This document shows positions 10,876 to 59,877 of a DNA stretch of 64,000 bases, one piece after another. Within the stretch, counting starts at the first letter, position 1. Every line of letters begins with the position of its first letter. The notes under the pieces were generated by a model, which saw only the letters and a program-made list of their open reading frames with translations, ran no database searches and was not told the DNA's origin. Both the position numbers and the translations under genes were made by a program. The stretch is from assembly GCA_010093705.1 (NCBI GenBank), contig MU006097.1, forward strand, positions 453,587 to 517,586. The letters are read 5' to 3'. The stretch comes from Patellaria atrata CBS 101060 (lineage: Eukaryota; Ascomycota; Dothideomycetes; Patellariales; Patellariaceae).

Positions 10876-11813
10876 ATGGCCACTCCTCACTCACTACATC
10901 ATGAGGGACCCCAAAAACCGCCACCTTCCACCACCCTTCCCCTCCGTCAGCACCCACAACAACAACCGCAACCCACCCAGCAAACCGTACAGGCGCTCCC
11001 CGTCCAGCCTGCCACCGGCCTGCGCTACCCCTCCAGCAAAAAGACCATATACGACCGAAATATCAACAGGAGCAAGACGGCGGAGCTGAGCAGAGCCGCG
11101 TTCGCGTACCTCTTCATCGAGATGATCGGGTACGCGCAACGGAGGGTGAAGGGTGTTGCGGATTTGGAAAAACGGTGTGTAGACTGTGTAGACCCATCTA
11201 TCCCTCAAAAAAAAAAAACCCTAAATTCCAAAGAAGAAATACAGCTTGGTTACCATTCCCGCGATATCATATTCACCCTCCCTATTCTCTTTTTTTTTTT
11301 TCTGTTGGGGGGGGGGGGAGGCAGAGGGGGTTTGATAACTAACGTTTCCCCCCCAACAGACTCAACGAAGCAGGCCAACCGCTCGGTCACCGCCTCCTCC
11401 CACTCCTCCTCCACCGCCTCCCTTCCCCCCCACCGCGCCCAACCCGGATCCTGCCCCTGCTCCAATTCATCACAACAACACTCTGGCGGCACCTCTTCGG
11501 CCGACCAGCAGACACGCTCGAGCGCTCCGCCGCCAACGCCGCAGAGTACATGATCAGCGACAACGAACCCCTCGTCAGCCAGTACATATCCGTACCGCGG
11601 GAGATGGGGAATTTCAACGCTGGGGCCTTCGTGGCGGGGGTCATTGAGGGCGTTTGTGTGGGTGCGGGGTTTGAGGTCGAGGGGGTTACGGCGCACGGGG
11701 TCGCGGAGCAGGGGGGAGGGGAAGGGGGGATGTGGCCGGGGAAAACGGTGTTTTTGATTAGATTTTGTGCGGGGGTTTTGGAGAGGGAGGAGGGGCTTGG
11801 GAAGGGGATGTAG
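10876..11813 (+). CDS. TRS31: TRAPP complex subunit Trs31/TRAPPC5, 250 aa, two exons
   Basis: A BET3-family subunit of the TRAPP tethering complexes, which activate Ypt1/Rab GTPases at the Golgi. Exons 10876-11174 and 11360-11813. The join gives DLEKRLNEAGQPLGHRLLPL, the typical family sequence, preceded by SKKTIYDRNINRSKTAELSR and followed by LWRHLFGRPADTLERS and YMISDNEPLVSQYISVPR. The first ~45 residues are a Pro/Gln-rich extension. The 185-nt intron is unusually long for this window and full of homopolymers. The C-terminal codons are extremely G-rich while the 5' half is C-rich. Confidence 0.93.
11175..11359 (+). other. TRS31 intron with A, T and G homopolymers
   Basis: Donor GTGTGT, acceptor CAACAG. 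It contains an A run near 11207-11218, a T run at 11290-11301 and a G run at 11307-11318. These are slippage-prone and could be misassembled in length. Confidence 0.8.
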
Positions 11814-12646
11814 GGGGGCCGGGGAGGGCGAAGGGGGGTGGGGGATAGAGGCATGGGAGGGAGTTTTGTGCATTTTGGGGCGTTGGGAGTATGATATAAG
11901 AGCGTGGTATAGTCGGGTTGGGCGAGGGGTAGAATGGGGATTTTGTCATTTCCGATGTGTTTTTAACCACGCGTCTACCGATCGATAGGAGCAAGGGAAT
12001 ATTTGCAGTGCCAGCGAGTTATGAGGAGTCTCACGTCCCAGTATAGACCTGATAGAACTACATATCACGACCTCATACCCCAACCCCATTCGAACGTACG
12101 TATGGACAGAATCACCATCTCGCCAACCGAACCTCAAAACTAGAAAGACGCGCAACCACTTACAGTAGTTTTATGGGTTGCAGGAAACACCCCCGTTCCC
12201 TTGACTCCCCCCTCTCTATGAAAATAGCGTACTTAAGCAACTAAACACAGTTTTACCTGGAAAATTCTCCTTCCCTGCTTAGTAGCTATATAGTCCTGGC
12301 TTGGACATGGGTGGGCTGGAGGAGTTCTGATATTTGTGGGTTTGGGGGTCGGGTGTTCGGGTTGAGTAACGGGTTCACGGGGCTGAGTGAAGTGATTGAG
12401 GTGACGAGCTTTTTACTTGTGAGATTTTGGCGCAGGGGGGTTGATGTTGTCTGTACAAAAGCCCAGAGACTCAGTATCATATCAGTAGAGATTGAAAGAA
12501 AATTATAGCCAAGTGAAGTTTTGGAGATTGATCTATTTCGTTAGACGGAATCGTTGACTGCGTATCTAGAGGAAGCTACCACCGTAACACCGTGTGGATT
12601 CTCCCATATTCGGGGCAAAGTGAGTTGGATATCTTGAGCTGTCGAG
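11814..12646. other. Intergenic, no gene seen
   Basis: The region starts as the strongly G-rich tail of the TRS31 island (to about 11940), then becomes ordinary AT-richer DNA. Short frames on both strands resemble no family. Confidence 0.4.
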
Positions 12647-13505
12647 CTACATCTTCGACACCCGTGTGGAAACCCAAAAATTATCATAGATCTCTATGAT
12701 ACTACCGTAAAGTTCCTTTTCTTTGTTAAAACCTCTCCCCTCCACTAAGAGCAAAACTGCCCGGCCCAGCTCCCACATTACGGCTTCGAATGAAGGATGG
12801 CGAGGATCTCCGATCTGATCGACAGCCGGTCGAATCATATTAAATCGCACCCCGTGCGCGTTTATGAACGTTGGTGCTAGTGTCTGCGCAAAGTCGAGGA
12901 TCCATCGTTGAGCCTCATTCTACTGTGGACAATCTTTTGGAACCTCAATTCCGAAACCACCGTGCGCAACCAGAAAATTCCTACTACCCTCCGACGTGTC
13001 GGATGAGAGGCAGAAGTAATGTTTGGCCAGCTGAGCGGTCCATTTGAAAACATTCAAGTCCATGTGTACCTTCAGGTTACGTGTGATGTCATCTGCATTG
13101 GGTTTGTCGCAACTTGAACGGGATTCTTCGGAAGTGGAGCAGCCGGAAACACTTATAAGGCCTGTATTGACTAGGACGAGATCGATACATCCTGTTTCAT
13201 GGAAAACTTCCCGGAAAGAATAAGAGAGAGAATCGAAAGATATCGGGCATTTAGCGTGGGAACCGGGAGATTTGGGTTTCATATATTTATTATCCACGCG
13301 GTATAATGAGCTGTATCCATCTATATCGTAAGGGGCTTCTGGACCTATAAGGAGTGCATGTACGTCCCAGCTTTCGCCAGATTCGGCAATGGCAGCGGTG
13401 ACGGTGTTGCAGACGGTAGATGCTAAGCCGAGTTAGATGACATAGGAGAAGAATTAGGGACTGGAAATACGCACTGGCGACGATGACAGCAACCTCAGTC
13501 ACCAT
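12647..13505 (-). pseudogene. Broken short-chain dehydrogenase/reductase (SDR)
   Basis: Exons 13475-13505 and 12647-13422 (52-nt intron with donor GTGCGT and acceptor TTAG) give an SDR-like protein: MVTEVAVIVAT.. at the start, then CIDLVLVNTGLIS, LDVNVF-like MDLNVFKWTAQLAKHYF, and after a stop HGVRFNMIRPAVDQ. One frame continues on both sides of a TAG at 12920-12922. By alignment from memory to SDR proteins (..PQYxASKHG..LAP), this TAG falls where the catalytic Tyr should be, and the catalytic Lys four residues later is Gln. The Gly-rich cofactor motif (TGxxxGxG) is also absent from the first exon junction. All three features argue for an inactive relic; a mis-set intron is the main alternative. 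Confidence 0.7.
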
Positions 13506-18178: not shown

Positions 18179-19252
18179 TGCGATGCGGTTGAGAGACCAG
18201 ACGACGCTGCCACGGTCCTAGAAATCTCTTTCCCTTCGGGATTTGTGAACTCAAGAGAGCGATATATTGGAAAGGGACCGAGCGCTGCTGTGATCAGGGG
18301 GTGGTTCTAGTCCTAGGGTGCGCCACCGATTGGTTCGAATTGGTTTCAAGAAGCATTATTGACATTCGACATGTAGTGAGCGGAACGTAGGTCGGACTGC
18401 ATTGGCATAAAGCTGAATATTGAAGATGTAGTGAAGAAGACACAATTGAAAAGAATGCAGAAGAGAGGGGGATGGAGTAAGTAGAAGAATTGGATGTTGG
18501 TGGTGGTTGTGTGTAGTGGTGGAGGATCGATTCGCGGAGCGGGTTTCAGAACAGCTTGACCTCCTCTGGACCCTGGAAGCCCAGTAGAAAAAAACGGTGG
18601 CTAATAGGACGAATACAAGAATTACTCGCAATTGACTTTCTCCTAAACTGTCCTTGGTGCGTATGCATGTCACTCAATAGAGTCTCTAACCGGCGCAGAT
18701 GAACTGATTTCTCAAGTCTCTTCAGCATCATCCTGAACAGATCGTTTGTACTGTAGGCGCGCGAGAGTGTGCCCTTCGATCCAGGCCTCCAAAACATCCT
18801 TTTGAGTTCATAAGAGCTGACGATGATTTCAGACACTTCGAGTCCAAAAACGTGTACGACGTAAGACGACATTATCGCTATCGGTTTACAACTTACAACG
18901 GCTTATCCTTGCGGTTGACAGTTTGCGGGCATGATTCTAAAACTCACCACCACAAGACGATATGGTAAACACGACGAGGATAAAAGAAGCATATGAAAAT
19001 GCAGGAACAGCGTAGTATATCTACTGTATCTATAGGATTGAAGTAGTCCATTACAGCAGTGTCCTGACACCCTGCACGCAAAGCCGCCCTTCTAATCTCC
19101 TGCAGTAGTCCTAACCCCTCCGCTACAAAAGGGAAACGAGCATCATCGTGCATCATACCTACCTTACCTTACTCCACCACATCACCCCAATCCTCCTACC
19201 TGACCATCAAACCCAAGAATCCAACCAGCCCTCCACAACAAGCATAACAACA
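18179..19252. promoter_or_regulatory. Divergent promoter region of the ADF-H and OHCU decarboxylase genes
   Basis: The two genes are transcribed away from each other across about 1.07 kb. A 108-codon frame on - (18546-18872) has no family resemblance. The right end becomes C-rich before the OHCU start. Confidence 0.45.
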
Positions 19253-20025
19253 ATGTCCTCCCTCCAACAGACCCCCCACCAATCCGCCGGCACAATTCCC
19301 CTCCACACCCCCCTTCTCCCCCCTCTCCCCTCCCTCCCCGCCTCCTCAACCTCCATCCGCGCCTCCCTCCTCGACGCCCTCTTCGAGCCCTGCACGCAAC
19401 TGCACACCCTCTCCCTCCCACTCCTCTCCAGCACCGCATTCCCCTCCTACCCGGCTCTAATCGACGGCATACGAAGCCAACTGCAAACCCTACAAACTTC
19501 CTCCTCGACTTCCGACACAGAATGGCTCGACAAGATCCTAGCCGCGCACCCGAGACTGGGCGAGAAGAAAGTAGACAGCGCGCAGAGCAGGGCCGAACAG
19601 GCGGCTATGGAAGCCGCGTCGGGAGGGGAAGGGGGGAAGGAGGAGGAGGCCAGGGCGTTGAGGGCGCTGAATGAGGAGTATGAGAGGACGTTTCCGGGGT
19701 TGAGATATGTGTACGTCTGTTTGAATGTCCCGGGTGGTTAGAAGGGAGGAGTCGAGTTACTTACTGATTGAGCTATTGTGAATAGGGTGTTTGTCAATGG
19801 ACGTAGTCGGGCGGTTGTGATGGACGATATGAGGAAGAGGATTGAGAGGGGAGATCTTGATGCCGAGAGGAAGGAGGCGATTGAGGTAGGTCATGTTATA
19901 CCGCTATCATGGAATAATATATGGGGACAATGAGGCTAATGATTTGGGGATAGGCTATGTGCGACATTGCGAAGGATCGGGCGAAGAAGTTTGAAGCGAC
20001 GGCAGAAATGAATACGAGCGCGTAG
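19253..20025 (+). CDS. 2-oxo-4-hydroxy-4-carboxy-5-ureidoimidazoline (OHCU) decarboxylase, 209 aa
   Basis: OHCU decarboxylase is the third step of the uricase pathway, turning OHCU into S-allantoin. Exons 19253-19710, 19786-19885, 19954-20025, in phase. Family landmarks: AAHPRLGEKKVDSAQSRAEQ (the HPxLG and SxxEQ motifs with the catalytic His), ALNEEYERTFPGLRYV joined to VFVNGRSR, and the terminal helix CDIAKDRAKKF. The ATG at 19253 is chosen because the frame upstream (from 19148) is C-rich leader without conservation. The C-terminus (NTSA) lacks a clear peroxisomal signal. An insertion rich in Glu/Gly follows SRAEQAAM. Confidence 0.92.
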
Positions 20026-20387
20026 AGTGAAATTGAGCATTCGATAATGGGCCAGGAGAAAACAAAAGCGAAGGATGGCCTACGCTTTGTTAAGATCAGC
20101 TTATTTGACGACAAACCTAAAGCATCGCATTCTGCACGGACCCACGATACTTGCTCTACGGTAGAAAGTCACCAAGAGTGTATATGATATATCTGAAGCA
20201 ATATTCCGTTAGGTTTCTGGTACCCTATATGCTATAATTGATGTAAGTAATCTCGATAAAAACTACACCTTCGTAGTATTATCCTCCCAAAAATATGAAT
20301 AAGACCCAATTCGACCAGACCTTCCGTTCCCAGATGCAGTTTTAGGCTCACGCTATGCAAAATCTCACGAACATCACTTCCTTTTCC
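20026..20387. other. Convergent intergenic gap
   Basis: The 3' ends of the OHCU decarboxylase (+) and the conserved unknown gene (-) meet here. It is AT-rich and presumably holds two terminators; no gene is seen. Confidence 0.4.
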
Positions 20388-21368
20388 TCACCCAAAATTA
20401 ACGAAGAGCACTTCCCTCCGTCTCTCCGCCTCCTTCTTCATTTCCTGAAACCTGTCTCGCTCCAGATTCCCGACCTGGTGCTTTCTCGCCATCGGCGGCG
20501 GCGGCGGAACCTCCGCGCCCAACGACATCCCGATCCTTGGGGCCGCCAGCTCCGTAACTCCAAACGCATCGATATCATCGTAATCGCCAATGACACTCTG
20601 TGTAGGTTCTAAGCGAGGGCAAAAATCGCCATACACAAGCCCAGGCCCACTATCTCTCCTCTGCCTTGCCTCCTTTTCCCCGCCTTCCGCATCCACATTA
20701 ACCTCCTCTACAGCAGTCGTATCGGTTTCTTCTTCGGCTCCGCTAGCAACGGTACTCCAATCCGCCCCACCGGCTTCCTCATCCCAGTCCGCCTCATCAT
20801 CAAAGGCGTCATAATTGCTCAAACCGAGCGGACTCGGCGGGAGGGGCGCAAAATCCCTCCCGCCGCATTTGCTCTGGCTAACACCTGGTAAGTGCCTCTT
20901 CCTGCACTCGCGATCCGGATCAGCATCGCACCATTCCTCGGCAAAGCGCGCATTCGGGGAGCCATACAGAAACGTTAGTCGCGCCATCTCCAGCGCTTGA
21001 TTAGACAGCAAATTTCCTTCCTCCAGTCTCCTCCTGCGGAAGCGATTCAGGATGGCGGCTTTGCGGAGCAGGTTACGACCCAGGGCCCGCTGTTTTGCCC
21101 AGACGGCGATCTTGGAGCGGCCACGGTCAACGATGTGCGTGGGAGGTGCGGAGAAGGGGAGGGAGAGGCGAGATGTGATGAGGAGGAGGCGTAGACGGCG
21201 CTTCTTTTTGCAACCGGCGGAGGAGTTTTCGCCGTCGACGTCTGTGAGGGGCCGGGTACGTTTATGAGGACCGCGAGGACGGGGCGGGGGAGGGAAGGTG
21301 AGTTTTGAAGCGAGGGGGAGGGGTCCGGCGGTGAAGGTGAAGACATCGGAAAGGGGTGAGGGTGGCAT
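20388..21368 (-). CDS. Conserved fungal protein of unknown function, 326 aa
   Basis: No catalytic family is recognised. A basic central block, LSLPFSAPPTHIVDRGRSKI followed by AVWAKQRALGRNLLRKAAIL, looks like a conserved nuclear-type or RNA-binding motif. An acidic segment follows (NYDAFDDEADWDEE), and the C-terminus is charged (ERDRFQEMKKEAERRRE). The start is set at MPPSPLSDVF (21368); the frame is open to an ATG at 21449 but that extra sequence looks like 5' UTR. The coding strand changes from C-rich at the start to G-rich at the end. Single exon as drawn. Confidence 0.65.
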   Translation of the reverse strand: MPPSPLSDVFTFTAGPLPLASKLTFPPPPRPRGPHKRTRPLTDVDGENSSAGCKKKRRLRLLLITSRLSLPFSAPPTHIVDRGRSKIAVWAKQRALGRNLLRKAAILNRFRRRRLEEGNLLSNQALEMARLTFLYGSPNARFAEEWCDADPDRECRKRHLPGVSQSKCGGRDFAPLPPSPLGLSNYDAFDDEADWDEEAGGADWSTVASGAEEETDTTAVEEVNVDAEGGEKEARQRRDSGPGLVYGDFCPRLEPTQSVIGDYDDIDAFGVTELAAPRIGMSLGAEVPPPPPMARKHQVGNLERDRFQEMKKEAERRREVLFVNFG

Positions 21369-24300
21369 CTTCAGTGTTGGATGCATTGTTGGTCGTGTTA
21401 TGCGGTGGCATTGGACGGGCATGCACATTGCGGTAGGGAGAGAAACCATGGGATCGTTGGCATCGCCGAGGGTTTTATTTGACGTCCGGAGTCCAGTTCC
21501 CGGTCCTGAGGAGGCGAAAGAGAAGCACTAAGACCTTGCGCTGGGGCTGATTTTGAGTTTTTTTTGACAGGTGCCGATCCCGCGGAACGATCTTGATCTG
21601 AGAGCAAAGTTGTTACGAGAGATTTATTTCTCGAAGATCCAGTTTCAGGACGACCATAGGCTGCAAGGGGAACGTTATGAACCGTGTTGTCGGCTCTCCT
21701 GATTGTCGGAATGGAGGGGGAATTGCAAGGCAAGCCCAGATCGTCGGTACAGAAATAGGGCTGAAGCCAGGCCAAGCATAGTCTGGAATTAGAGCAAGCC
21801 TGGCGGAGATTAACTTACGAATTAGGAGCAAACTGGAAGAGTTCTGGGTGCGAGGATTGAAAAAGAAAAGATAAGAGACAGGATGAAAGGTGGGAGGATG
21901 GAGGAGGGAGGATGGAGGAGGGAGGAGGAGGAGGAGGAGGGGAGAAGTGATGTGCACACGACCACTTTGAGTAGTGAGGTATAGGAGGAGTACTGTAACT
22001 CTGTAAGGTAGGCAACTTACGTACTATAAGAAAGGCCCAGAAAGATGTGGCGTCGGACCAGGGTCTCCTTCGTCTAAGTGGAAAAAGATATTCGTCTCCC
22101 AGATTTTTCGTCTCGATCCGAGGCAGAGGTTCTACCCTTATGAACTGGCAGACACTCTCGTAAGTAGCCACAAGGTTTTACAACACAAGCTTTTTAGCTG
22201 AGTGGTCAGCGGTAATGTATGCATTTAACTGTCTGTATACTTGTATGGTAGGGGCCTTGGAGGAGTTTTGAGAGGCTGTGTTTCTCGTCGATTCGTATAG
22301 AAGTGCATATACATGTGCAGTAACTTCGAGTTTAAAGTTTCCTTTTCCTTTTCCACCAGTTGACTGGCCGACCCGACGATACGGAAAAGGCGGAGAACCC
22401 AGGCGGCTGCATTATTTGGCGGGCAATCCGGGCATGCATGACTCTCGCAACACCCGTGTACCCTTGGACCCGACCAGTCGACCACGCCCTTTTTTTTTTG
22501 CCCTATTTCTTTTAGACTACAGTACTCGCCGAACCCCTCCCCAGTTACCTTAGTAGTCCCCATCAAGTCTGAGCGACTTTTTATTTTTTTCAGCAGTTCA
22601 GATGACAGGGTGCTGGGGCTGGATTGGGGCCATGGCTCTGAAGGATTAACTTCAATTACGTCCCTCCAGGGTCTTGCCAGCAAACCAGTAGTCGTCTTGT
22701 CGGTCTATCAAAGCATCTCATATCGTCAATCTGATTTTTTGAACGCAAGGCTTACTTACAGTACCTACTTATCCCGGATTGTGAAGGTAAAAGGAGAAGA
22801 GCAAAGTTAATGTAAGAGAGATTAATAGACAAGAATTAAGACCCTGGATTATAGCATAGCTTCGTTAGTTTTGGACAAAAGTAGCGTAGCGAAAAGGAGA
22901 CTTAAAAACAAGTGTGAACTCGATTTACGGGAGGAGCCAGGGACGATGGGATCGTGAGGCGCCTCTGCAATCTTAGCTTTGGCTTGGAAAGGTAATTCAA
23001 CCCCGGATCTTGAAGCCCGAGGAACAGTCCGAAGAGACGATGAAACCCATCAACGGGAAGGATTTTTCGTGCCACTCCTTTCTGCCTCCCCTGAGCCGTC
23101 TATGAAGTTAGGATGATACAGTAGGATCCATCATGACCTGTCCTGCTGTCGTGCAAAAATCTTGTAGATCATAGCTGTTGCCTCCAGTTTTGATCAGAAA
23201 GTTGATGTTCTTCATCCAAGAAACCGGGGAAGATGAGTGTTGATCAGGGCAAGGCAAGGCTGCCAGGCGACATATCCTGAGATGGACATAGCATCGCTGA
23301 TCGTCTTGGTGAGTAACAAAAACTTTCTTAAACGTTGTATGTCATAGTAGTAGTCATCTTCTTCAGGATTCAAGTTGGTAGTCTTTGTGTCCTTCCATCA
23401 GAGGTAACCTCACATTCAAAGGGGACAGAAAGGGGGAATCTTCTTTCTCTCCTACCCCAGATTGGTCCATAGGGCTGTAGTACCATCTGGACCACTAACG
23501 CACGCCCCATGATGGTGTAGCCACACCTAGACCGATAAAATTTTTCTTAATCCTGTAACTGTTACGAAATGTCGCGCACTCTGTTGCAACCTCTCACGGA
23601 ATGGAATAATAATTCTAAGAGCCTTGGGCACAATAGGCAGCTACGGCAAATTCTATCCATTAGCTGAACTTCCCAATCCTCTTCTTCGGCCGGCTAGGAT
23701 AGAGCCTCTGGACCGCGGCGGAACAAGGGGGATTTCGCCATGCGCCGAAGCGTGACACGATGGTGATGTGCTGTGCTTGATGCAAAGATTATCGAAAGTT
23801 TGAAGGTACAGGTACAAAGCTGTTCTTGCTCCAGTCGACGTGAAGCTCGTGACCGCTGTGCGTATTGGGCTGCCACTAAGTTTGACGGGTTGGGTAAGCC
23901 ATCGATGCTGTTGCGTTATAATGGTTACTTCCGAATATTGATCTGACACTCCCCCTACGCGCGTAGTCTGCTGTACGTGATGTGTCTACTCATACATAGA
24001 GCATACTGTGCCCAGCTCAGCACATCTCAAATGTTGGATCGTGCGCTGACTCCTCACCGTCGAGGCCCTAAACTTGCCAATTGCGGTCATACAATCGCAA
24101 TAAAGCCTCGAATAACATGGTGTTTGATATGCAGTGCTTCATGTTGGTCGTTACTCAGCATATCAGCGATAAAGTGAGGGGAAAGACCAAAATAGACACA
24201 AGGCCAGGAAAACCTTGGAGCCGTGAAGGAAGTCGGAGACGTATCCCCGGATCATGGGTATTAAAATAATAAAACTCATTCTATCGCGTTCAGAGCCTTG

Positions 24301-30621: not shown

Positions 30622-32863
30622 ATGTCACCCAAAGCATTTGGGACAGATTTCCGATGCTTTGCTCTCTTGCTGAGTCTAGTGGTATCAGTTTCTGCGATTG
30701 TCGCATCTCCTGACACTGTACAATCCGATATCTCTGTACTAATTCATAATGACCTTTACGGTATCCATCATATCTCACTCTTATTCTAAATTAATGATGC
30801 TAACCTTCTAATAGGAGAGTTAAGTGTGCGAAAGGGTGCTACACTTGTGGTTCATGAGCCTAAAACGATAATTGGAGCAATATCCACATGTGCTGCTTTC
30901 AACGAAGTTTTATGGACACCAACTTTGTATAATGCGACATTCGATGGAAACAGCTTCCTTGGATTTCTTGCTTATAATTCGGGAGATGATCGCTTTTGGA
31001 TATCGAGTACTTCCAATTCCTCTTGTCGAACCATTTCTGCCTCGGGGCGTATTAGGTCTTCAAGGTGCACCGTAAAATATCCTGTGCTGTGTACACAATC
31101 CGCTCCAGCGTCATATCTAAATGCAATTGACACGTCGGAAAAGTGGCAGGTTACCGTAAACAGCGCAGGACAGCGTATTACGGGATTTCGAGATAAATAC
31201 TCCTTCCGTTTCCAAGGAATCAGATACGCATCCCAACCCGAACGTTTTACCCATTCAACCCCGTATCATACCAAAGGGAACTTTTCGGCACTGGCTTTCA
31301 GTCCTCCGTGTATGCAAAGATACTGTCCCGGAAGCTCATGTAGTGAGGACTGCCTATTTCTCAATATCTGGTCCCCTCGCCTCCCATCAAGTTCGGCATC
31401 TTTCAAGTCTCTCAAACCTATCCTGGTCTGGTTTCATGGGGGAGCTTTTACCGGCGGTACTGGATCTGATCCCACCTTCGACGGTAGCTCCTTCGTTTCG
31501 AGAGGGGATGTCGTAGTCGTAACTGTGAACTATCGTCTTTCCACTCTTGGCTTCCTTGTCCTCGACGACGGCGTGACCAAGGGGAATTTCGGCATCGGAG
31601 ATCAGATCACGGCGTTGGAATGGCTAAAAGTTCATGCTAAGGATTTTGGTGGTGACCCTGAACGAATTACGGTAGCTGGGCAGAGTGCTGGAGCTGCGAG
31701 CGTCAGAGCTCTGTTGGGGAGTCCCAGGGCAAAGGGGCTCTTTCACGCTGGAATCATGATGAGTTCACTGGGTGGATATGCGTATGCTACTACCTATTCG
31801 GAGTATTACTCGCTTCCAGACGCTGTGACAACTGTTACCAATCCGTTTTTGGAAGCTACTGGCTGTACCGGCGAAGATAAACTGGAGTGTTTGAGGGGAA
31901 TAGATGCACTAGAGATCCAGACCAAAGGATATGAAATACGGTGAGTACAATCTACCATTGGAACTGTGGTGGAGATCTTGCTGATATTGAAAATATTCAG
32001 ATTCGTAGTGCAGGATGGGGAATATGTCACTTACCCTCGCCTACCCCTGAGCAAAAACAGTACTGCTTTGAAAGTACCGATGATAATCGGTTGGATGCGA
32101 GATGATGGCGTAAGTTCTCCTCCAAGACTCTCCAGAAACTCTAATCTAATATAAGAGACAATAGGCAGCAATGATATCCTATCCGAAAAACATAACGAGC
32201 GCTTCGGACTTCATCGCCTCCCAGGGCCTTCCAGCTTCACTAGTTGCATCCTCATCCGTCTTTCCCTTACCAAGCGGACCAGACACAATTCAGAACATCT
32301 TCAACCTCACCGCCCGTATCGCCACAGACGCCGAATTCCGCTGTCTAGGTCAAGCAACCGCGTACGCAGGCGTCCGGAACAGCGTCTTCCCCAACGTCTG
32401 GGTCTACGAATTCGACCGCGCCTACCAGATCCCGGAATGGAGCCCCAACGATCCCAACTGTAAACCACCGCCAACTACGTCTCATCCGCTCGGTGATCCG
32501 GCGAGAGAGTACTTTAAGTGTCACTCCGGCGACCTCCTTTCTGTCTTCGGCACCTTGTCCCGTCAGTCACTCCCCGACCGTGATGACCACGATATCCCTT
32601 TTAGTCAGCGGGTTCTTGATAGCTTTGCTGCGTTCGTCCGGACGCATGATCCTAACCCTGATCCGGAGTTTTTGGAAGCGAGGGGGTTTGTGAATACAAT
32701 GGGTGCGGTGGAGGAGGATGGAAGGTGGGTGGAGGTTGAGGGGCGTGGGGAAATGGGGTTGAGGATGATGGCGCTTGCGGGGAGGGGAGAGGGCGGGATG
32801 AAAACATGGAGGGAGAGGGAACAGTGTGAGGTCTTAGGATTGGGGAATGAGTATTATTTGTAA
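30622..32863 (+). CDS. Secreted type-B carboxylesterase with C-type-lectin-like N-terminal region, 690 aa
   Basis: Exons 30622-30760, 30815-31940, 32001-32109, 32165-32863, in phase. A signal peptide (FRCFALLLSLVVSVSAIVA) precedes a ~120-residue Cys-containing region with CAAFNEVLW, DDRFWISS, CRTIS and VKYPVLCTQS, which resembles a C-type-lectin-like fold (inference). The alpha/beta-hydrolase follows: oxyanion loop PILVWFHGGAFTGG, nucleophile elbow VAGQSAGAASVRALLGS (Ser in GQSAG, where GESAG is usual), acid in IIGWMRDDGAAM, and His in YFKCHSGDLLSVFG. SEDCLFLNIW is the family's second signature. The substrate is unknown. Composition switches to C-rich then G-rich in the last exon. Confidence 0.9.
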
Positions 32864-36652: not shown

Positions 36653-37803
36653 AAAGAGTGAGGGTGAAGGGGGGTTGTTAGGAGCATGGGCATGAAGAAA
36701 ATAACGGGATAGAAACCAAGCTAGTGACTTGTGCTTATATATTTCTCGGGATGACTGTGTATATTAGTCGTGTGACGTTGTGGAGCTACCCTGGTTCTGG
36801 GCTCTGAGTGCATAGATGATGTGGGCGATCCGTTCGTGCTGAGAAGAACAATTACCTGTCATTTGTAATTAAGACCCCCCCCCCACCCCCCCCTTTTTTT
36901 TTTGTCTCTAAGTATACTGGGTTATTCCACCTTCCCAAAGACAAGTACTCCGATTTGGCTGTAGGATCGTCAAGATCTCATGTAAACCGTAATCAGCGCG
37001 TGGGGATGTGTATAACGTACAGCGAATATAGACCACTACCTTACTCCTGATACACCAGAAGAAAATTCCTCATTTCGCTTCCTCGGGTACGGCGCGATCG
37101 CAGCACGGGTTTCCGTAGAAACAATACTCAGTACAAGTCCGGTATTGTTGGTGTTGGTACTGTAATGGGTCCCATAAGGTATTTTTTTTGCTCTGGACTA
37201 TCATTCCGCGGCTGGATTTTACGAGCTTGTATGGATGGTGTATGGTACGGGGCGGTCCTTTATATAGATGGGTAAGTTGGAGGGGTTGATGAGTTTGTAC
37301 AGCTGAGTGGATTTGGACGAGTTGGTGATTTCTGTACAGTCCAGCCATAATTCGCTGTCTAGTCAGGCTTGTACGGTACGAAGTGGTCAAGTTCTATGGA
37401 TCTCGTGGAATTGTACTGTCTAAGTCAATAGTACACTGGTCGAATTGCACGGTTTAGTCGCTTCGAATAATTCTGTTGATATTGAGTTTGAAGTAGTCAA
37501 GGTAATATTGGGAGGGAAAGGAAAACGTATTATTGGTTCGTAGTATTGAAAGTACCATGCAGTGTTCATGCTAATAGAGTGCGCTTTGTGGATGTATAAG
37601 GATGAGGGTACACGAGAAGGTTGTAATGTAAAGGTAAATTGCTCTAGAATGAATGTAAGCGCCGTGAGTGCTTAATCTCGTATGTGATGTACAGCATGAT
37701 ATACAATATTCACAATGACCTACAATGCCCCATCTATACAATGATCCTGATTATGCAAACGTAGAAGCGAACGCTGATGATGCTAAAGTAAACTTACTAC
37801 CAC
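36653..37803. other. Convergent intergenic region, no gene seen
   Basis: Lies between the 3' ends of the rhodopsin-fold gene (+) and RAD5 (-). It holds the C/T homopolymer block at 36875-36903 and otherwise ordinary AT-richer sequence. Confidence 0.4.
36875..36903 (+). repeat. C10-A-C8-T10 homopolymer block
   Basis: Adjacent runs of C, C and T separated by single bases, about 220 bp past the rhodopsin-fold gene. Confidence 0.85.
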
Positions 37804-46670: not shown

Positions 46671-47039
46671 GGCGTCATGAGGATGATGAAACAATTATTT
46701 TTGGTTATGGAGTGAGTGATATGTCTGGAGTTTCTTTTTGGGGGAGTCTTATCAATTTCAATGCCTGAGCAAGGTAATGCTCTATATTCGGAATGCAGCA
46801 GGTGTTTTCTTCCTTCGATGATCCGGCTCTTCAAGCGGATTCGGCGGCTTCATTTTGCTTTTCTTGGTCTGCGTTGTAGGATCTCTGTACGATTGAGCGG
46901 GACACCTGGCTGATACTGTATATATGATGGGAATGATAAATGAGCCAGTTGATTCATCACATTTCGAAACGGGGAACATTCTTTTTATGCCCGGTGTATC
47001 ATACCGGGTTTCTCTAGTGACTGAACACGAGCAAGTATA
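46671..47039. other. Convergent intergenic gap
   Basis: Lies between the 3' ends of the Tea4-like gene (+) and the PARG-type gene (-). No gene is seen. Confidence 0.4.
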
Positions 47040-48236
47040 CTAATCATCGTCGTCCTCCTCATCCTCATCATACACAGAATCCCTCGCTCTCGCATCCTCC
47101 AGCTGCCTCTTCATCCCCTCCAACACCTTCTCCAACCCCCCTTTCAGCCTCGAAATTCGCACATTCCTTACCCGCTCCTCCATCTCCGCAATCTTCCCTT
47201 CCAACTCCCTCACCTCCACATTTCCACCAATCTCATCCCCCTCCCCTTCCTCCGTTCCTCGCCTCTTCTTCCCTCGCATATCCTCAACCTCCAACCCCCT
47301 GCCCCAAACCCGCGCAAACTCTCCCGCCATCCTCCACCCCCCGATCGCAAACACCACCTCCTCGAACCCCCAGTCCTCCCGTCCCTTCCCCCTCCGTCGC
47401 GGCTCCCCACAAAGCACTTTCCGCCACGCGCGGGCGACCTCCGGGACCGGGTTCCTATAGGCCCCGCACCCCCAAGCACCCAGGACGATTTGTTTAGACC
47501 CCCGCGTGGACAGGATACGCAAGACGGCGCGCATTTTCGCGTGTACCGTTTCCCTATCCGCGGGATTCGTATATCGCATCTCTGTCCTTACTTCCCCATC
47601 CCCCGGCCCATCTCCCTCTTCAAGATCCGGAAATCTCAACGCCCCCGCACTAACAACATCGACCCATCCCACCTCCCTCCTGTTCATATCCCTTCCCCCC
47701 TCGTCCCGAAAGACAAGGACGTCGGACGTCCATACTGCCCCTACGTCTGGGAGTCTGTAAAACTGATCTTTTAGAGACGGGAGCAGCGTCGTGCGGAGAC
47801 AGAGCTGTTCCTCCTGGGCTGATGCGCCGGCGAGGACTCCGCCGCCGGGGGAGAGGGGGGAAGCCATGTTGAGGATGGCGACGTTCTTGGTGGGGGTTTT
47901 ACGGGGGTTTGTGGGTGGAGAGTGGGAGAAGGAGAGGGCGACGGTTAGGGTGTCCCCGCATGCGATCCTGATTTTCGTACCTCCATTCGCGTCTTTAACC
48001 CCATCCTTATTTCCTTCTCTGTCGCCCTTGCCCGAATCTCCCGCTTGAGCGGACTTCCTGCTCACGGCAGGCGGGTCGACGATCAATTCGGCGCCTTCGA
48101 CGCCCCGGCGCGCGCGCGGATACGAGACCAGCAGCGCGGGTATCGTTCTGTTAATCGTTGCTCTGGCTAGTTTGGTGCGAGCTTCTTTGCGCTGGGAGGC
48201 TGGTGGGAGGCCGAGGGAGGGTTGGGTGCGACCCAT
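47040..48236 (-). CDS. PARG-type (microbial) poly(ADP-ribose) glycohydrolase, 398 aa
   Basis: A single-exon macro-domain protein of the microbial-type PARG group (DUF2263-like). The N-terminal motif ATINRTIPALL is typical, and the catalytic loop is ASPLSPGGGVLAGASAQEEQ, followed by LCLRTTL: GGG for the ADP-ribose phosphates and QEE with the catalytic Glu. VLGAWGCGAYRNPVPEVARA and FEEVVFAIGG complete the macro fold. The C-terminal ~80 residues are charged and helical (EEVREL..., KGGLEKVLEGMKRQLEDARA) and suggest a coiled coil. Such enzymes remove ADP-ribose from proteins. The gene lies 252 bp downstream of the NAD kinase on the same strand. GC is high, G-rich at the coding 3' end. Confidence 0.9.
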   Translation of the reverse strand: MGRTQPSLGLPPASQRKEARTKLARATINRTIPALLVSYPRARRGVEGAELIVDPPAVSRKSAQAGDSGKGDREGNKDGVKDANGGTKIRIACGDTLTVALSFSHSPPTNPRKTPTKNVAILNMASPLSPGGGVLAGASAQEEQLCLRTTLLPSLKDQFYRLPDVGAVWTSDVLVFRDEGGRDMNRREVGWVDVVSAGALRFPDLEEGDGPGDGEVRTEMRYTNPADRETVHAKMRAVLRILSTRGSKQIVLGAWGCGAYRNPVPEVARAWRKVLCGEPRRRGKGREDWGFEEVVFAIGGWRMAGEFARVWGRGLEVEDMRGKKRRGTEEGEGDEIGGNVEVRELEGKIAEMEERVRNVRISRLKGGLEKVLEGMKRQLEDARARDSVYDEDEEDDDD

Positions 48237-48488
48237 GGTGTTTCCCGAGGTGGCGTTCTACACAGACTGCTTGATTTCAGGAACGAGGTTAAGGGATGCT
48301 GAGGTTTGAAGGATCTTAGATTTTGCGAGGCGAATTGCCTGGTGAGAGTGTGGATGTTCACATTGTGAGTGGCGATGGAGTAGCATTGGGGTGAGATGGG
48401 AGGACAATGATGGCAACCCAAGATGATCTAATCTAATCTAAAGACCCTTGTGGCCGATCTGGACAGCACTGACCACTCGATTTTTTAC

Positions 48489-50573: not shown

Positions 50574-52794
50574 ATGGATAATATTAAAACCCAGCAGGCC
50601 GATGGGTCCAGTGGTGGTCAATCTTTATATCCCGTTCGTTTATGGGATCCTCCTTCCCCTGAAACTGCCACAGCTCGTATAATGTGGAACTTTATGCAGG
50701 AAGTGAACAAGAAGTATGATCTGCAATTGAATTCCTACAAAGATCTTTACTCCTGGTCAATTGAGAATATAGCTACATTCTGGGGAGAAGTATGGCACTT
50801 TACGGGTATCAAAGCATCAGAGTCATACACTGAGGTTAGCATAATCAACATTAGCATTTCCGGGTAAGATACTTATCAAAGTAAGGTATTAGATGAATCT
50901 GTGCCAATTTTCCCTCGTCCAAATTTCTTCAAAGGTGCAAAACTCAATTTCGCGGAGAATCTCTTATATCCTGCCCCGAGTCCCTGGCCTCATTCACTGG
51001 CAATTATAGAGGTTACCGAGACCGAAAGGAAAGAATTCTCTTGGGATGAACTCCGGAATCAGGTTCGGCTATGTCAAGGGGGGCTTAGAGCAATAGGGGT
51101 GAAAGAGGGAGATAGAATTGCTGGATATGTTGCTAATCATACTAATGCTCTTATCGCCATGCTAGCGGCCACCTCTCTAGGAGCTATCTGGACGGCCTCG
51201 AGTACAGATACTGGTCCGACAGCAGTGTTAGATCGACTAAAGCAGATAGAACCTACAATTCTCTTTGCGGATAATGCATCATTCTACAATGGAAGAAACC
51301 ATCCAGTACTACCAAAGGTCGCCGAGATTGCTGCTTCACTCCTTACACTCGAAGCAGTCATTATCCTCCCGTCCACCTCATCAATGGATGTAGACCTAAA
51401 TTCCATAAACCTATCCTCAGGATCAGTGTACGATTATCACTCCTTCATATCCCAAGGGACGCCGTCCTCAGAACTGAACTTTGCCCAACTATCACCAGAT
51501 CACCCTGTCTATATATTATACAGCAGCGGCACAACCGGTGCCCCCAAATGTATCGTTCACAGCGCTCTCGGCACCCTAATCCAGCACAAGAAAGAGCACG
51601 CGCTCCACTGCTCCATATGGCCCGGTGCTCGACTCTTCTACTACACCACCACAACATGGATGATGTGGCACTGGCTAGTCTCCGGCCTCGCCAGCGGCGC
51701 AACCCTAATCCTGTACTCCGGCTCTCCCTTCCGATACCGCTCCTCAATCCCCTCCCCAGATCCCTCCAACTCCTCCTCAACTCCCACCTCCACCCCCGAC
51801 GACCTCGCGATGCCCCGTCTAATCTCCGAACTGGGAATCACCCACTTCGGCACTTCAGCAGCCTACCTCTCCCACCTGGAGCAAAAGTCCCTCCTCCCCG
51901 TCGCCACGATCCCAATGCCCACCCTGAAGGCGATTTACAGCACCGGCTCCCCCCTCGCCCCGTCCACCTTCGCCTACGTCTACCGCGCCTTCCCCGCGAC
52001 CGTAAACCTCGGCAGCATAACCGGTGGCACGGACATCATATCCCTCTTTGGGGCATCGTGTCCCCTCCTCCCCGTCTACGCCGGCGAAATCCAATGTCTC
52101 GGCCTCGGCATGGCCGTGCGCGTTTACGACCCTGACGGCAACGATATCACCGCCACGGGCGATGAAGGCGACCTCGTCGCCGTCCGCCCCTTCCCCTCGC
52201 AGCCGACCTCGTTCTGGGGCCCGGACGGAAGGGAGAAGTACCGCGCTAGCTACTTCGACAGGTTCGAAGGCGTGTGGCATCATGGGGATTTCGTCCGCGT
52301 CAACCCCACCACCGGCGGCCTCGTTATGTTGGGCCGTAGCGATGGCGTGCTTAAACCCGCTGGTGTGCGCTTCGGGAGCGCAGAGATCTATAATCTCGTT
52401 TTGCGGCATTTTGCGGGTAGTGTCGCGGATGCGCTTTGTGTGGGTCGTCGGCGCCAGACGGATGTTGATGAAACGGTGGTGCTGTTTTTGAAGATGGAGG
52501 AGGGGAGGGCCTTTGATGAGGAGCTCGTTAAGGAGGTTAAGGCGTGTGTGAGGAGGGAGTTGAGTGCGAGACATGTGCCGGGTGTCGTGGTAGAGTGTAC
52601 GGAGATTCCGGTCACCAGCAATGGGAAGAAGTGAGTATCTTTTCGGACTGATTGTTATGTGAATTTGCTAACCATTCGATAGGGTTGAGGGCGCGGTGAA
52701 GCAGATTTTGAGTGGATTTGATGTTAAGACATCTGCGTCGGTTGCTAATGCGGAATGTTTGGACTGGTACCGTGAATGGGCACGGACGCACTAA
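50574..52794 (+). CDS. Acetoacetyl-CoA synthetase, 705 aa, three exons
   Basis: Activates acetoacetate (ATP-dependent AMP-forming ligase of the ANL superfamily, close to acetyl-CoA synthetase). Exons 50574-50834, 50886-52630, 52683-52794, in phase. The N-terminal LWDPPSPETATARIMWNFMQ and FPRPNFFKGAKLNFAENLLY are diagnostic of the subfamily. The P-loop is YILYSSGTTGAPKCIVHSAL, followed by TTTTWMMWHWLVSGLASGAT; the hinge/core has WHHGDFVRVN and MLGRSDGVLKPAGVRFGSAE, with SNGKKVEGAVKQI holding the catalytic Lys at the last splice. The first intron ends in AAG (50885). Composition changes sharply inside exon 2 near 51.5 kb, from AT-richer to C-rich and then G-rich. Confidence 0.95.
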
Positions 52795-52995
52795 TGGTTC
52801 CTCTGGGAGTAGTATGGTTCTCGGATAGACGATCATATTATAGACTTGGGTGAGAGATGCACAAGTATACATACGTACATACAGAGAGAAGATGACATTA
52901 AGACCAGTATATTACACTTTTTCCCATTTGATTAGGAAGACATGAGTTCGACCAGGAATTCTCACAATATCGATAGAGATTCGCATATACGACAT

Positions 52996-55140: not shown

Positions 55141-55231
55141 ATGAGAAAGTGGAGGTAATGCCTTGATTCTATTTTGTATGAGGTTAAACCCGTCGTAACT
55201 ACACGATATCTATTAAGGTATCGTTGTAGAT
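55141..55231 (+). repeat. Copy A of a duplicated 91-bp segment
   Basis: Aligns without gaps to 55868-55958 with about 18 mismatches by my count, many of them transitions. Both copies encode a similar peptide in one frame (CLDSILYEVKPVVTTRYLLR here), so the source was probably coding. Confidence 0.75.
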
Positions 55232-55867: not shown

Positions 55868-55958
55868 ATGAAAAAATTGAGATAATGCCTTGATTCTATT
55901 CTGTATATGGTTAACCCGGTGTTAAATACACGAATTCTGCCAAGGTATCGTTGCAGAT
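55868..55958 (+). repeat. Copy B of a duplicated 91-bp segment
   Basis: Partner of 55141-55231; encodes CLDSILYMVNPVLNTRILPR in the matching frame. It ends ~20 bp before the start of the C2H2 relic. Confidence 0.75.
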
Positions 55959-55980
55959 ACGGTAAGTTTCCTAGCCTGAT

Positions 55981-56947: not shown

Positions 56948-57613
56948 CGCTCACGACTACTAATCTAGGATATTCAGTAACTCGAACGTCCATCCTACCA
57001 TCAACTAGCAAACCAGTAAAGGGATTCAGAGGTTGCGAGTGTTAGAAAGGATGATTCTGATTGAGGACTGGATTACTACCTATTTCACTACTCTCTTTTA
57101 TTGTTCCAAGTTCCTGCTTCCAGTTTCCACCACCAAATTGCTCCAATCTTCTTACCTTTTTTATACTGAAAGATCCACGGTCTCCCATCTCATTTCTATC
57201 CACAGCAACATCTTTCTCCTCAGATTTCCTCACCACACTCTTTTGTACCGAACGATTCACGGCCTTTCATCTAGATAAAATATAAACCCCACGCTCCTTA
57301 AAAACCTCATCCCAAACCGTACCCATCGTGACACCCACCACCTGCACTACCAGAACACCAACCACTCTATCGAAACCACTGACCATCGAGAATCCCCCAT
57401 GACGGACGAAAAGCCCCTCCCACCACGCATGTCCATAAACATCATAAACGCCGCATGGCCCCCATCTCACCCTAAGCAAACAAACCCCTCCCCCTGTACC
57501 TCGTACACCCTACCATAACCCCCATATAACGTTATCCCCTTAGACCTCTCCTCATCAACATTTAAACTGGCTCTATAAAGCCTCAGATTTTGAATAGGGA
57601 TCTTCCCAAGCAT

Positions 57614-57626
57614 CCCCCCCCCCCCC
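57614..57626 (+). repeat. C13 homopolymer
   Basis: Pure C run in the C-rich region. Confidence 0.9.
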
Positions 57627-57747
57627 GTCTTGCAGACCTATGGACCTAAGGACTCCCTCGTATTTTGGATCTTTCCGATTGTTATACTTACGCTTCTGCT
57701 ATTTGACCTTCTCCCGTATCCGAACCCATTCCCCCCCCCTCCCCCCC

Positions 57748-57774
57748 GAAAAACAAACAAACAAACAAACAAAC
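57748..57774 (+). repeat. (AAAC)n microsatellite after C-rich runs
   Basis: About six AAAC units directly follow two C runs (57731-57747). Confidence 0.9.
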
Positions 57775-57973
57775 TCTCCAGAAACCCTTCCCACTATCAA
57801 CAGCCTCCTCATGAGATCCTCCCCCACCAGAAACCCCCTCCCATCCACCCTTCCCCCTATCCGACCTTCTCTCCTGTTTAGCCTCCCCCCTAAACACCAT
57901 ATTCCCCACCGGACCCGGCTACGGCATAACAATATAATATTACACACGGGACACGGTAAAGTTAAATATATCA

Positions 57974-58010
57974 CCCCCCCCCCCCCCCCCCCCCCCCCCC
58001 TTCCTCTCTA
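57974..58010 (+). repeat. C37 homopolymer
   Basis: An uninterrupted run of 37 C, the longest homopolymer in the window. The complementary G strand could form a quadruplex or triplex. The length may be imprecise in the assembly. Confidence 0.9.
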
Positions 58011-58743
58011 TGCCCCGCATTAAACCCTACGGAAGGCCCCCGAACCTATACTCTAAACTCTATATTCCACACGTCCCAAATCCATCACCAATGTTTCAAC
58101 ATCTCTTCCATTCTCTATCATGGGCTGAGATGACGATCGATCGATCGACTGATTAACTAATTGATTGGATTAATTGATTTATATCCTGAGATATCTACCT
58201 TAGGTAATCGTATGGTATCATATATGCTTGAATGTAGTAAAGTATGTACTTCCTTCCTTCCTATCTCGTCCACTGCCTCACTCCCCCTTCCGTTCATTCA
58301 ATATACAATAAAGGACAGGAGGAGCAACCGCATGATCGCTCCTTCCCTTTCCCTCTCCCCTTCCCAATCCGTCCACCTCACTGCCATTACAATTAAATGA
58401 CACCTCAACTCATCCTCCCCCGCCTTGAGCATTCTCCATCCTTCAATAATTCAATCTACCCCTTCCCCCACCCCTCCACTATGGTAGGTAATTCCGTCCC
58501 TGAGGTATCTTCTATGCCAACCCAAAATTCCTAATGCTATATGTATCCCAACCTGAATTCTAAAAAGGAGAGTCATGACCCACAGGATCCATATTCATAC
58601 ACTCATTAAACTAAACTTCACCTCCCAAACACCAATTACCAAACACAAAATCGCGTACCAAAATCCCGCCATGCAGCCCAAATTTTTTCAAATAAACAGA
58701 AAGGAAAAGAGTAGAGAGCCCACCAATTCATCTCTTGCAGATC

Positions 58744-59877
58744 TTATACCAAGATAGCTCCAACGAGACCAACCGCGGCGCCGAAACCCAGTCCCACAGC
58801 AGCAGTAGCTCTCGGGCCGGCACCGGTCTGGACCGCGGGCGTCCCCGTCGCCGACGAGCTCTCCGCCGCACCACCGCCGCTTCTCGTCCTGCTGGCGGCG
58901 ACGTACGCATACTCCGTCACCGTGCCGACCTGTCCATTCGGCAGTGTCGTGGTCTTCAGCACGGCAGTCGTCACGTACCCGCCCTCGGGTGTATAAGTCG
59001 TGACAAATGTGCTTCCTCTGCCGTCTGTCGTCGTGATCTCTTGCCCTGGTTGTACGTCAGAGATGGTGAGTGTTTCTCCGCCGGAAGCGGTGAGGGTGAT
59101 GTCGACGCCCGCGGCGGGGCGGGTGACGAGGGAGGTTGAGCCGGCGGCGTCGGTGGTCGGGACGATGATGCCGGGGCGGCGGGTTGAGGTGACGATGACG
59201 ATGCCGGAGGAGGTTCGTGTGATCGGAACGACGACCGATGCGGTTGGCTCGGGGATGGGGGTTATGGTATCCTCGGGAGGAGGAGGAGGAGGAGCTGTTG
59301 TGGTCTCTTGGGGAGGAGGTGGAGGAGCACTGGTGTCTTCGGGAGGTGGAGGAGGAGCATTGGAGGTGCTATCTGGGGGTGGTGGGGCGGGCGTGGTATT
59401 GTCGTCAGGTGTGGGCGGTGATGAGGTTTCGGTCGGAGGTGGTGGAGGGAGTGTGGATGTAGGTGACACTACAACGGTAGTGGTTTCAATGACGGTATTT
59501 CCACCATCATCCGTCGTCGTCACAGGCGGTGGGGGTCCCACGGTTGTGTTCCCACCAGTCTGATCCTGCCGTTTTGCAAGATCTAACTTCGCAGCTGCAA
59601 GGACCGCGGTTGCGAGAGGTGGATTTTCCTTGTGAACGGCCTTGACTGCCTCGCGCTCGCGCTCATAGATCCCTTCCCGATACTTTGGATGTAGGTGATC
59701 ACGGAGAGCGGCGTGGAGTGAGGATTCGGGCAATAGTTCGAGCAGGGCTTCGAATTCCTGCTTCCAATTCTCAGCAGCATCCGGGAGGTTTTGCGTGCTC
59801 TCGGGTTGAGGTTGCGCGGAGATGGAACGGGAGAGGAGAGGGAGGAGAAAAAGGGTTATTTGGCGTATTGAACGCAT
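58744..59877 (-). CDS. GPI-anchored Pro/Thr/Ser-rich cell-wall protein, 377 aa
   Basis: Single exon. A signal peptide (ITLFLLPLLSRSISA) is followed by an ~80-residue helical region ending in a Kex2-like LDLAKR|QDQ site near residue 103, so residues 22-103 may be a propeptide. Next is a mucin-like Pro/Thr/Ser region with Pro runs (TAPPPPPPEDT) expected to be O-mannosylated, then a Val/Thr-rich stalk (TASGGETLTISDVQPGQEIT). It ends in a small-residue ω region and the hydrophobic tail TAAVGLGFGAAVGLVGAILV, typical of a GPI signal. No enzyme domain is seen, so a wall-structural or adhesive role is inferred. Confidence 0.82.
   Translation of the reverse strand: MRSIRQITLFLLPLLSRSISAQPQPESTQNLPDAAENWKQEFEALLELLPESSLHAALRDHLHPKYREGIYEREREAVKAVHKENPPLATAVLAAAKLDLAKRQDQTGGNTTVGPPPPVTTTDDGGNTVIETTTVVVSPTSTLPPPPPTETSSPPTPDDNTTPAPPPPDSTSNAPPPPPEDTSAPPPPPQETTTAPPPPPPEDTITPIPEPTASVVVPITRTSSGIVIVTSTRRPGIIVPTTDAAGSTSLVTRPAAGVDITLTASGGETLTISDVQPGQEITTTDGRGSTFVTTYTPEGGYVTTAVLKTTTLPNGQVGTVTEYAYVAASRTRSGGGAAESSSATGTPAVQTGAGPRATAAVGLGFGAAVGLVGAILV

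Follow-up and report, generated by a model that had tools for sequence, protein, structure and literature searches.

A 64,000-nucleotide stretch of the Patellaria atrata CBS 101060 genome (GenBank assembly GCA_010093705.1, contig MU006097.1, positions 453,587 to 517,586 of the forward strand) raises the question of what makes GC-rich patches in and around genes change, at a point, from C-rich to G-rich. A sequence-only reading of this stretch, hereafter the window, had described eight such islands by eye, all with the C-rich part on the left of the + strand, and had proposed a bidirectional process starting at each switch point, such as replication initiation or biased repair. All statistics below refer to this 64-kb window alone. 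We found that the skew pattern is linked to genes and that the flip is largely an effect at the DNA level. The best explanation, to which we give about an even chance, is a gene-linked, transcription-coupled and strand-specific substitution bias, a cause that we infer from the pattern. The existence of gene-linked skew in fungi is already known; what is new is its shape and strength, with discrete GC-rich islands, some very sharp switches and C-blocks that start inside long genes.

Eight GC-rich islands with one polarity

In 100-bp windows, all eight islands are C-rich on the left and G-rich on the right of the + strand, and GC is raised in each. A jump scan was carried out in which (G-C)/length of the left arm was subtracted from that of the right arm at every position, using arms of 200, 300, or 500 bp and a threshold of 0.3. 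With 500-bp arms, upward jumps of at least 0.3 were found at 11596, 19551, 21034, 32607, 36271, 47707, 52215, and 58986, and these eight strongest upward GC-skew jumps of the 64 kb are the eight noted islands. Downward jumps of at least 0.3 were found at four positions (47025, 20099, 37707, and 18929). The numbers are more even with shorter arms (19 up and 21 down at 200 bp, 16 up and 11 down at 300 bp) because every island has edges too, and the islands are distinguished from other jumps by their size and GC. Over the window, the correlation between jump and local GC was 0.30 to 0.35, and no null value was that high in 2000 circular shifts or 300 block reversals per arm length (null standard deviations 0.03-0.06 and 0.08-0.10, respectively).

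The same islands were recovered when 14 GC peaks were picked blind to skew with windows of 400, 600, 800, and 1000 bp. At 400, 600, and 800 bp the top eight of the 14 peaks are the eight islands, and all eight jump upward; at 1000 bp a peak at 62385 ranks eighth and the 32.6-kb island ninth, leaving seven of the eight islands in the top eight. With 600-bp windows, the island jumps span 0.19 to 0.60 as compared to -0.13 to +0.17 for the next six peaks, whose GC is at most 0.552. Some islands come out slightly C-rich in their right half in this test because the GC maximum can lie off the switch. The peak ranking next after the eight islands (62385-62630) has only small jumps (0.03-0.14). Thus, the 100-bp windows, the jump scan, and the blind peaks agree on the polarity first seen by eye, and the switch positions given then proved correct to about 0.2 kb. 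The order also holds on both strands: in all five + genes and three - genes, the coding strand reaches the switch before the stop.

The genes were named as follows. Pfam matches were obtained for TRAPP, OHCU decarboxylase, carboxylesterase, Fung_rhodopsin, microbial-type PARG, and AMP-binding (AACS) and, further, for PARP, Cdc48-type AAA, UCH, mitochondrial carrier, WD40, ketopantoate reductase, and NAD kinase. The names TRS31, OHCU, esterase, rhodopsin-fold (rhodopsin for short), PARG, AACS, PARP, CDC48, USP, carrier, KPR, and NADK are based on such matches, and SWD2 is the label given to the gene with the WD40 match. RAD5-like, g43, and C2H2 are labels with no Pfam run behind them. No Pfam match was obtained for the SDR-like, g44, 947-codon, unnamed, and GPI proteins, whose names are working labels, "GPI protein" being taken over from the earlier reading. 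The gene content, with the Fung_rhodopsin domain and the short introns, is in keeping with a filamentous ascomycete. The intron limits were read from the sequence, and the coding extents, assigned in the same way as a partial list with introns included, make up 50% of the window.

In the mean profile, GC is about 0.6 at the switch as compared to 0.48 for the window, with C at 0.40 to 0.42 on the left and G at 0.41 to 0.46 on the right, and GC falls back to near 0.47 by 500 to 900 bp from the switch. The size and range of the change bear on the proposal that replication origins or termination sites lie at the switch points. An upward GC-skew jump is the signature of bacterial and human origins (for the human case, PMC3459929), and according to the same source the termination zones of Saccharomyces cerevisiae jump upward as well. 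However, in the yeasts covered there, S. cerevisiae and Kluyveromyces lactis among them, the leading strand is enriched in A and C, from which origins would be expected to jump downward, whereas all eight switches here go upward. S. cerevisiae origins show a 9% skew jump that returns over ∼20 kb (Marsolier-Kergoat 2012, PMC3459929), whereas the islands change by ∼65 to 85 points over ∼1 kb and have no consistent AT-skew flip in the mean profile of the eight. The yeast replication skew therefore shares with the islands a change of sign at a point, but its sign at origins is opposite, its amplitude is about a tenth, and its range is ∼20 kb. In addition, the eight switches fall within ∼48 kb, two of them only 1.5 kb apart. 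Candida albicans centromeres have a similarly very large jump (74%, decaying within ∼3 kb, and judged in PMC3459929 to be unrelated to replication), but those jumps are located at centromeres and not in genes. Judged by the yeasts measured, an origin would differ from the islands in sign, size, and range. The islands are probably not the mark of origins, initiation at the switch as first proposed is not supported, and we regard any replication-based account as highly improbable.

The switch itself can be very short. The best-fit width was 1 to 20 bp in six of the eight islands, in fits with windows placed around the switch points, which themselves had been selected as the points of highest contrast. 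A sharp switch is well constrained only in TRS31, OHCU, esterase, and PARG, in which an 80-bp width is worse by more than 5 log units; the AACS switch is gradual (∼160 bp) and the width of the GPI switch is unconstrained. No obvious common motif was apparent in the eight 81-bp stretches at the switches, which were read by eye and not with a motif program.

Base choice at silent sites, introns, and flanks

Codons were shuffled 2000 times among positions of the same amino acid in 26 coding segments. For each of the eight island genes, the upward score observed in the main segment was above those of all 2000 permutations (p 0.0005), and exon 1 of TRS31, a second segment of that gene, gave p 0.0015. 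The two short OHCU exons past the switch had no significant upward jump in this analysis. The null means were themselves high (4.5-9.2 versus 8.5-13.2 observed), which indicates that amino-acid order and the codon pool carry part of the signal. Across the switch, the four-fold C:G ratio changes from 0.70:0.10 to 0.19:0.67 in OHCU exon 1, from 0.68:0.12 to 0.22:0.56 in the rhodopsin gene, and from 0.54:0.20 to 0.13:0.60 in PARG, and codon positions 1 and 2 change as well. Three introns in G-blocks have G over C (27:9 and 20:7 in OHCU, 13:7 in the third), as do 3′ flanks; the TRS31 intron as delimited is not G-rich (39 G, 45 C).

A search of genome contigs with AACS gave 18 loci, and every record title was bacterial. 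One partial locus (L018) was dropped, and the other 17 entered the comparison. At the homologous place the 17 bacterial orthologues have four-fold jumps of -0.16 to +0.16, as compared to 0.53 here, and all 17 have a small positive jump at positions 1 and 2 (0.02-0.11 versus 0.31). Protein identity to these orthologues is level over the baseline, the C-block, and the G-block. No fungal relatives were found in the viral contigs searched with TRS31 exon 2 or the RAD5-like protein.

These results weigh on selection acting on codons, protein, or mRNA structure. Many fungi favour C-ending codons, the amino-acid content shifts along with positions 1 and 2, and both the sizeable permutation null and the small bacterial jumps at positions 1 and 2 point to some contribution of the protein. 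Against selection are the permutations themselves, the silent sites of the bacterial AACS genes, the three introns and a 1.6-kb flank that follow the pattern, and the Cdc48 gene of the window, which prefers T- over C-ending four-fold codons (0.45 versus 0.30). Compared with shuffled sequence, three islands gained no stability in their predicted folds (z 0.00, 1.39, and 2.80 with 100, 20, and 20 shuffles), which also removes RNA structure by pairing of C-block with G-block as a candidate. Selection is accordingly a decidedly unlikely cause. Protein composition and codon pool are ruled out as the whole cause by the permutations and the bacterial AACS genes, while carrying part of the effect, and the earlier reading is upheld in that the flip is strand-oriented, acts largely at the DNA level, and is not fully explained by amino acids and codon pools. 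Within codons it changes both synonymous and non-synonymous sites, and it extends to introns and flanks. Conversion from the 3′ end by cDNA was rejected since introns persist in the islands (one in TRS31, two in OHCU, and one in AACS, counts that rest on predicted intron limits).

Two-fold sites, pooled over the eight island genes, reveal that the change is one-sided. At baseline, G is found in 45% of purine-ending codons and C in 42% of pyrimidine-ending codons; the stop codon that closes one of the baseline segments (30790-31944) does not count as a two-fold site. Left of the switch, G is unchanged at 46% (71/154; G/A 71/83 versus 437/529 at baseline, p 0.86) and C is up to 74% (167/227, p 6e-18). 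Right of the switch, G is up to 77% (144/188, p 1.5e-15) and C is down to 25% (37/150; C/T 37/113 versus 450/613, p 2.6e-5). By gene, GPI has no left-hand rise of two-fold C (12 C, 17 T), and the right-hand two-fold sites of TRS31 and GPI (4 and 4 in each) are too few to show the fall of C. Right of the switch, four-fold C stays near its baseline level (0.21 versus 0.23).

A process that merely favours G:C pairs would not produce this one-sided change. GC-biased gene conversion is strand-symmetric, and would be expected to lift G and C on both sides. It has in common with the islands a local GC peak, at recombination hotspots, but it fails the two-fold-site test here, where left-hand G stays flat and right-hand C falls; in its ordinary form it does not agree with these sites. 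Slippage of poly-C and poly-G was rejected as well, given that runs of at least four are about as frequent as expected from composition (49 versus 61.5 expected in C-blocks, 55 versus 51.3 in G-blocks), and base-by-base substitution is the more likely route. Deamination of cytosines on resected or displaced strands was set aside because either side is poor in both A and T and AT skew has no consistent flip. Four-fold A falls to 0.00 to 0.05 where C peaks in AACS and the rhodopsin gene, a level that C/T and A/G transitions alone would not be expected to give.

Linkage to genes and possible causes of the skew

The jumps are associated with coding extents. With 500-bp arms and the threshold of 0.3, all eight upward jumps and none of the four downward jumps lie in coding extents (Fisher p 0.002); with 300-bp arms the numbers are 14 of 16 and 2 of 11 (p 0.00085), and three other scan settings gave p 0.0002 to 0.0012. 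The switch is located 208 to 669 bp upstream of the stop codon in all eight island genes. The G-block ends 89 to 237 bp past the stop in six of the eight, with values of 357 bp for the unnamed gene and 496 bp, poorly defined, for GPI. The standard deviation of this end is 93 bp relative to the stop versus 227 bp relative to the switch (seven genes, GPI excluded), or 140 versus 218 bp with GPI included.

Genes outside the islands show a shift in the same direction, only weaker. In the last two 100-bp bins before the stop, G exceeds C in 8/8 and 8/8 island genes and in 9/11 and 10/11 non-island genes. The skew rises toward the stop in nine of 11 non-island gene ends and is unchanged in two (mean 0.152, Wilcoxon p 0.002). 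By synonymous permutation, a significant upward jump lies within 350 bp of the 3′ end in PARP, RAD5-like, the 947-codon gene, g44, SDR-like, and NADK; the significant downward changes are those of PARP (p 0.04) and of AACS, where the C-block sets in (p 0.001).

The sign of the skew in the window is expected, because in nearly every unicellular fungus examined by McLean and Tirosh (2011, PMC3315797), with many filamentous ascomycetes on their list, the coding strand has a C-bias in its 5′ part and a G-bias in its 3′ part. There, as here, four-fold sites, amino acids, and untranslated or flanking regions are affected and AT skew is flat, and the coding strand of the island genes turns from C-bias to G-bias. 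Those authors propose mutational and adaptive causes and leave the choice open. Our current hypothesis is that every island, whether it spans a whole gene or only the 3′ part of one, carries a strong and GC-enriched form of this skew. The cause would be a transcription-coupled, strand-specific substitution bias, arising from damage or repair of template and non-template strands, that may differ between the gene body and the terminating 3′ end and would have accumulated over long times, far more strongly in some genes than in others.

Several observations weigh against this hypothesis. The published gradient is averaged over genes or relative gene position, its C-bias is strongest at the promoter or 5′ end, and its GC skew is negatively correlated with GC content (PMC3315797); the islands, unlike this, are discrete, reach GC of about 0.6 versus 0.48, and have sharp switches in at least four cases, and their GC enrichment is absent from the pattern as published. 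The sampled 5′ parts of AACS and esterase show near-baseline values, and the C maximum adjoins the switch rather than the gene start in AACS, the rhodopsin gene, and GPI. Two-fold sites fit the classical transcription signature on the G side and not on the C side. Carrier and SWD2 have significant upward jumps more than 450 bp from the gene end, and no upward jump at p<0.05 was found in CDC48, the two USP pieces, KPR, the upstream esterase exon, g43, or C2H2. In six long non-island genes, four-fold C rises before the 3′ end in five (p 0.11) and four-fold G rises at the end in four (p 0.16), neither of which is significant. The transcription-coupled reading accounts neither for the great strength of the skew in some genes nor for the rise in GC.

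The C maxima deserve a closer description. In AACS, four-fold C is 0.15 to 0.24 in the first 160 codons of the sampled exon and 0.84 beside the switch, after which G takes over; the peaks beside the switch reach 0.81 in the rhodopsin gene and 0.71 in GPI. The esterase C-block starts inside the gene and has no clear peak at the switch, and in the rhodopsin region the 100-bp windows of 35501-35800 are near neutral. Left-side four-fold C fits distance from the switch better than distance from the stop (log-likelihood by 6 and 10), in a comparison for which the switch had been chosen for maximal contrast, a further point against the transcription-coupled bias; on the right, neither distance matters much. 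In the first 150 bp from the assigned ATG, (G-C)/length is -0.34 in TRS31, -0.48 in OHCU, -0.29 in the unnamed gene, -0.19 in GPI, and -0.13 in PARG, values that cover the five island genes with an assigned ATG. It should be noted that the per-gene table of start and stop bins leaves out USP, KPR, and g44, whose entered starts are not ATG.

The C maxima at the switch and the GC rise leave room for a process centred on the switch. Stated generally, a strand-oriented, GC-enriching process would act inside the last kilobase of genes, with C gained on the coding strand up to a point and G after it at all site types; we consider this rather unlikely, if less so than either of the specific forms that follow. 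If true, centred events, be they strand-biased break repair or divergent intragenic transcription, would blur into the gene-averaged fungal skew that has been published.

In the first specific form, double-strand breaks at the switch point, meiotic or other, would be followed by repair or conversion with a strand bias. Resection would leave opposite strands on either side, and mismatches opposite G would be corrected to C on the invading 3′-ended strand, so that the + strand gains C on the left and G on the right and GC is highest at the break. The polarity, the GC rise around the switch, and the climb of C toward it in several genes fit this prediction. The C and G amplitudes correlate over 19 genes (rho 0.67, p 0.0016), a set in which the islands had been picked for both; in the 11 non-island genes alone the correlation is not significant (rho 0.44, p 0.17). 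In Zymoseptoria tritici, 1435 of 2578 mapped hotspots are in exons, but the same source describes GC-biased conversion there as extremely weak or absent (PMC5844332). The anchoring of jumps and G-block ends to genes is not predicted by breaks, and no strand-biased form of conversion turned up in the literature listings. Ordinary GC-biased conversion does not agree with the two-fold sites, as set out above; the idea of a strand-biased event at the switch is kept because the C peaks adjoin it, and we judge it unlikely.

Intragenic divergent promoters, like those of vertebrate CpG islands, are a second form, in which each transcript would leave its own G-rich skew on the non-template strand. CpG-island promoters are GC-rich regions of ∼1 kb with C on the left and G on the right, a layout that the islands match. 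The excess of G over A and of T over C at right-block two-fold sites follows the direction of the asymmetry on the vertebrate non-transcribed strand (PMC2927911). However, the switches are within coding sequence, 208 to 669 bp before stops, the left block lacks a matching loss of G, and fungal transcript starts are reported to be C-biased on the coding strand (PMC3315797). Divergent promoters are therefore improbable. Taken together, gene-linked substitution bias is ranked first and strand-biased break repair second.

No islands of this kind in fungal nuclear genes were found among the titles surveyed, a weak absence since subscription journals and preprints were largely outside the survey. 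The window offers single genes in which the fungal skew is very strong. Several of the switches can be placed to within a few tens of bases, base choice is one-sided on either flank, and GC rises, so that competing causes are testable gene by gene. It also carries two warnings: such jumps are not to be taken as replication origins, and GC or codon bias in such genes is not to be relied on for judging expression level or foreign origin.

The islands in order

The limits of all island parts given here are approximate. Island 1 (+) has a C-rich part at 10730-11595, comprising the 5′ flank and exons of TRS31, which encodes a TRAPP subunit, and a G-rich part at 11596-11950 with the end of the coding sequence (stop 11813) and ∼135 bp of 3′ flank (G 0.50, C 0.07). 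TRS31 (10876-11813) has repeated C-to-G teeth, in exon 1 (∼11065, smaller), in the intron (∼11305, by eye), and in exon 2 (11596). Island 2 (+) is C-rich over the 5′ flank and first two thirds of exon 1 of the OHCU decarboxylase gene (19150-19550) and G-rich over the remainder of the gene (19551-20050, stop 20025), which includes two putative G-rich introns. Island 3 lies on the - strand in the unnamed gene, whose coding strand is C-rich in the 5′ part (21036-21650, ATG taken at 21449) and G-rich in the 3′ part (20300-21035, stop 20388). In island 4 (+), the C-rich part is within the last exon of the carboxylesterase gene (32200-32655), four-fold C being 0.05 to 0.38 in the upstream exon 30790-31944, and the G-rich part covers the end of the coding sequence (stop 32863) and ∼135 bp of 3′ flank (32656-33000). 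Island 5 (+) corresponds to the Fung_rhodopsin gene, C-rich at 35800-36270, with four-fold C reaching 0.81 over the 40 codons that start at 36107, and G-rich at the gene end (stop 36652) and 3′ flank (36271-36785).

Island 6 is the PARG-like gene on the - strand. Its coding strand is C-rich in the 5′ part (47709-48440, ATG taken at 48236), apart from one short G-rich interruption, and G-rich in the 3′ part (47040-47708), where four-fold G is up to 0.91; this part ends within ∼90 bp of the stop at 47040. A second, smaller C-to-G tooth is also present in PARG (47040-48236). Island 7 (+) has its C-rich part in the interior of an exon of the acetoacetyl-CoA synthetase gene AACS (51350-52215), along which four-fold C goes from 0.19 to 0.84, and its G-rich part (52216-52890) holds the end of the gene, with one intron and the last exon as read from the sequence (stop 52794). 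Island 8 is on the - strand, where the GPI-protein gene is C-rich on its coding strand in the 5′ part (59048-59877, strongest from ∼59465 to 59050) and G-rich in the 3′ part (57120-59047), which contains the last 300 bp of the coding sequence (stop 58744) and 1.6 kb of flank. This flank (57120-58743, -) is apparently noncoding, has G 0.36 and C 0.11 on the strand of the gene and a G run of 27, and is longer than the other 3′ G-rich flanks measured in the window.

Long antisense stop-to-stop frames of 231 to 270 aa are found in three islands, at 51855-52667 (-), 47025-47774 (+), and 11250-11945 (-), and look like by-products of the skewed composition. Lastly, a PARP catalytic-domain gene (36-3980, +) and the microbial-type PARG-like gene (47040-48236, -) are both present in the window, 43 kb apart.

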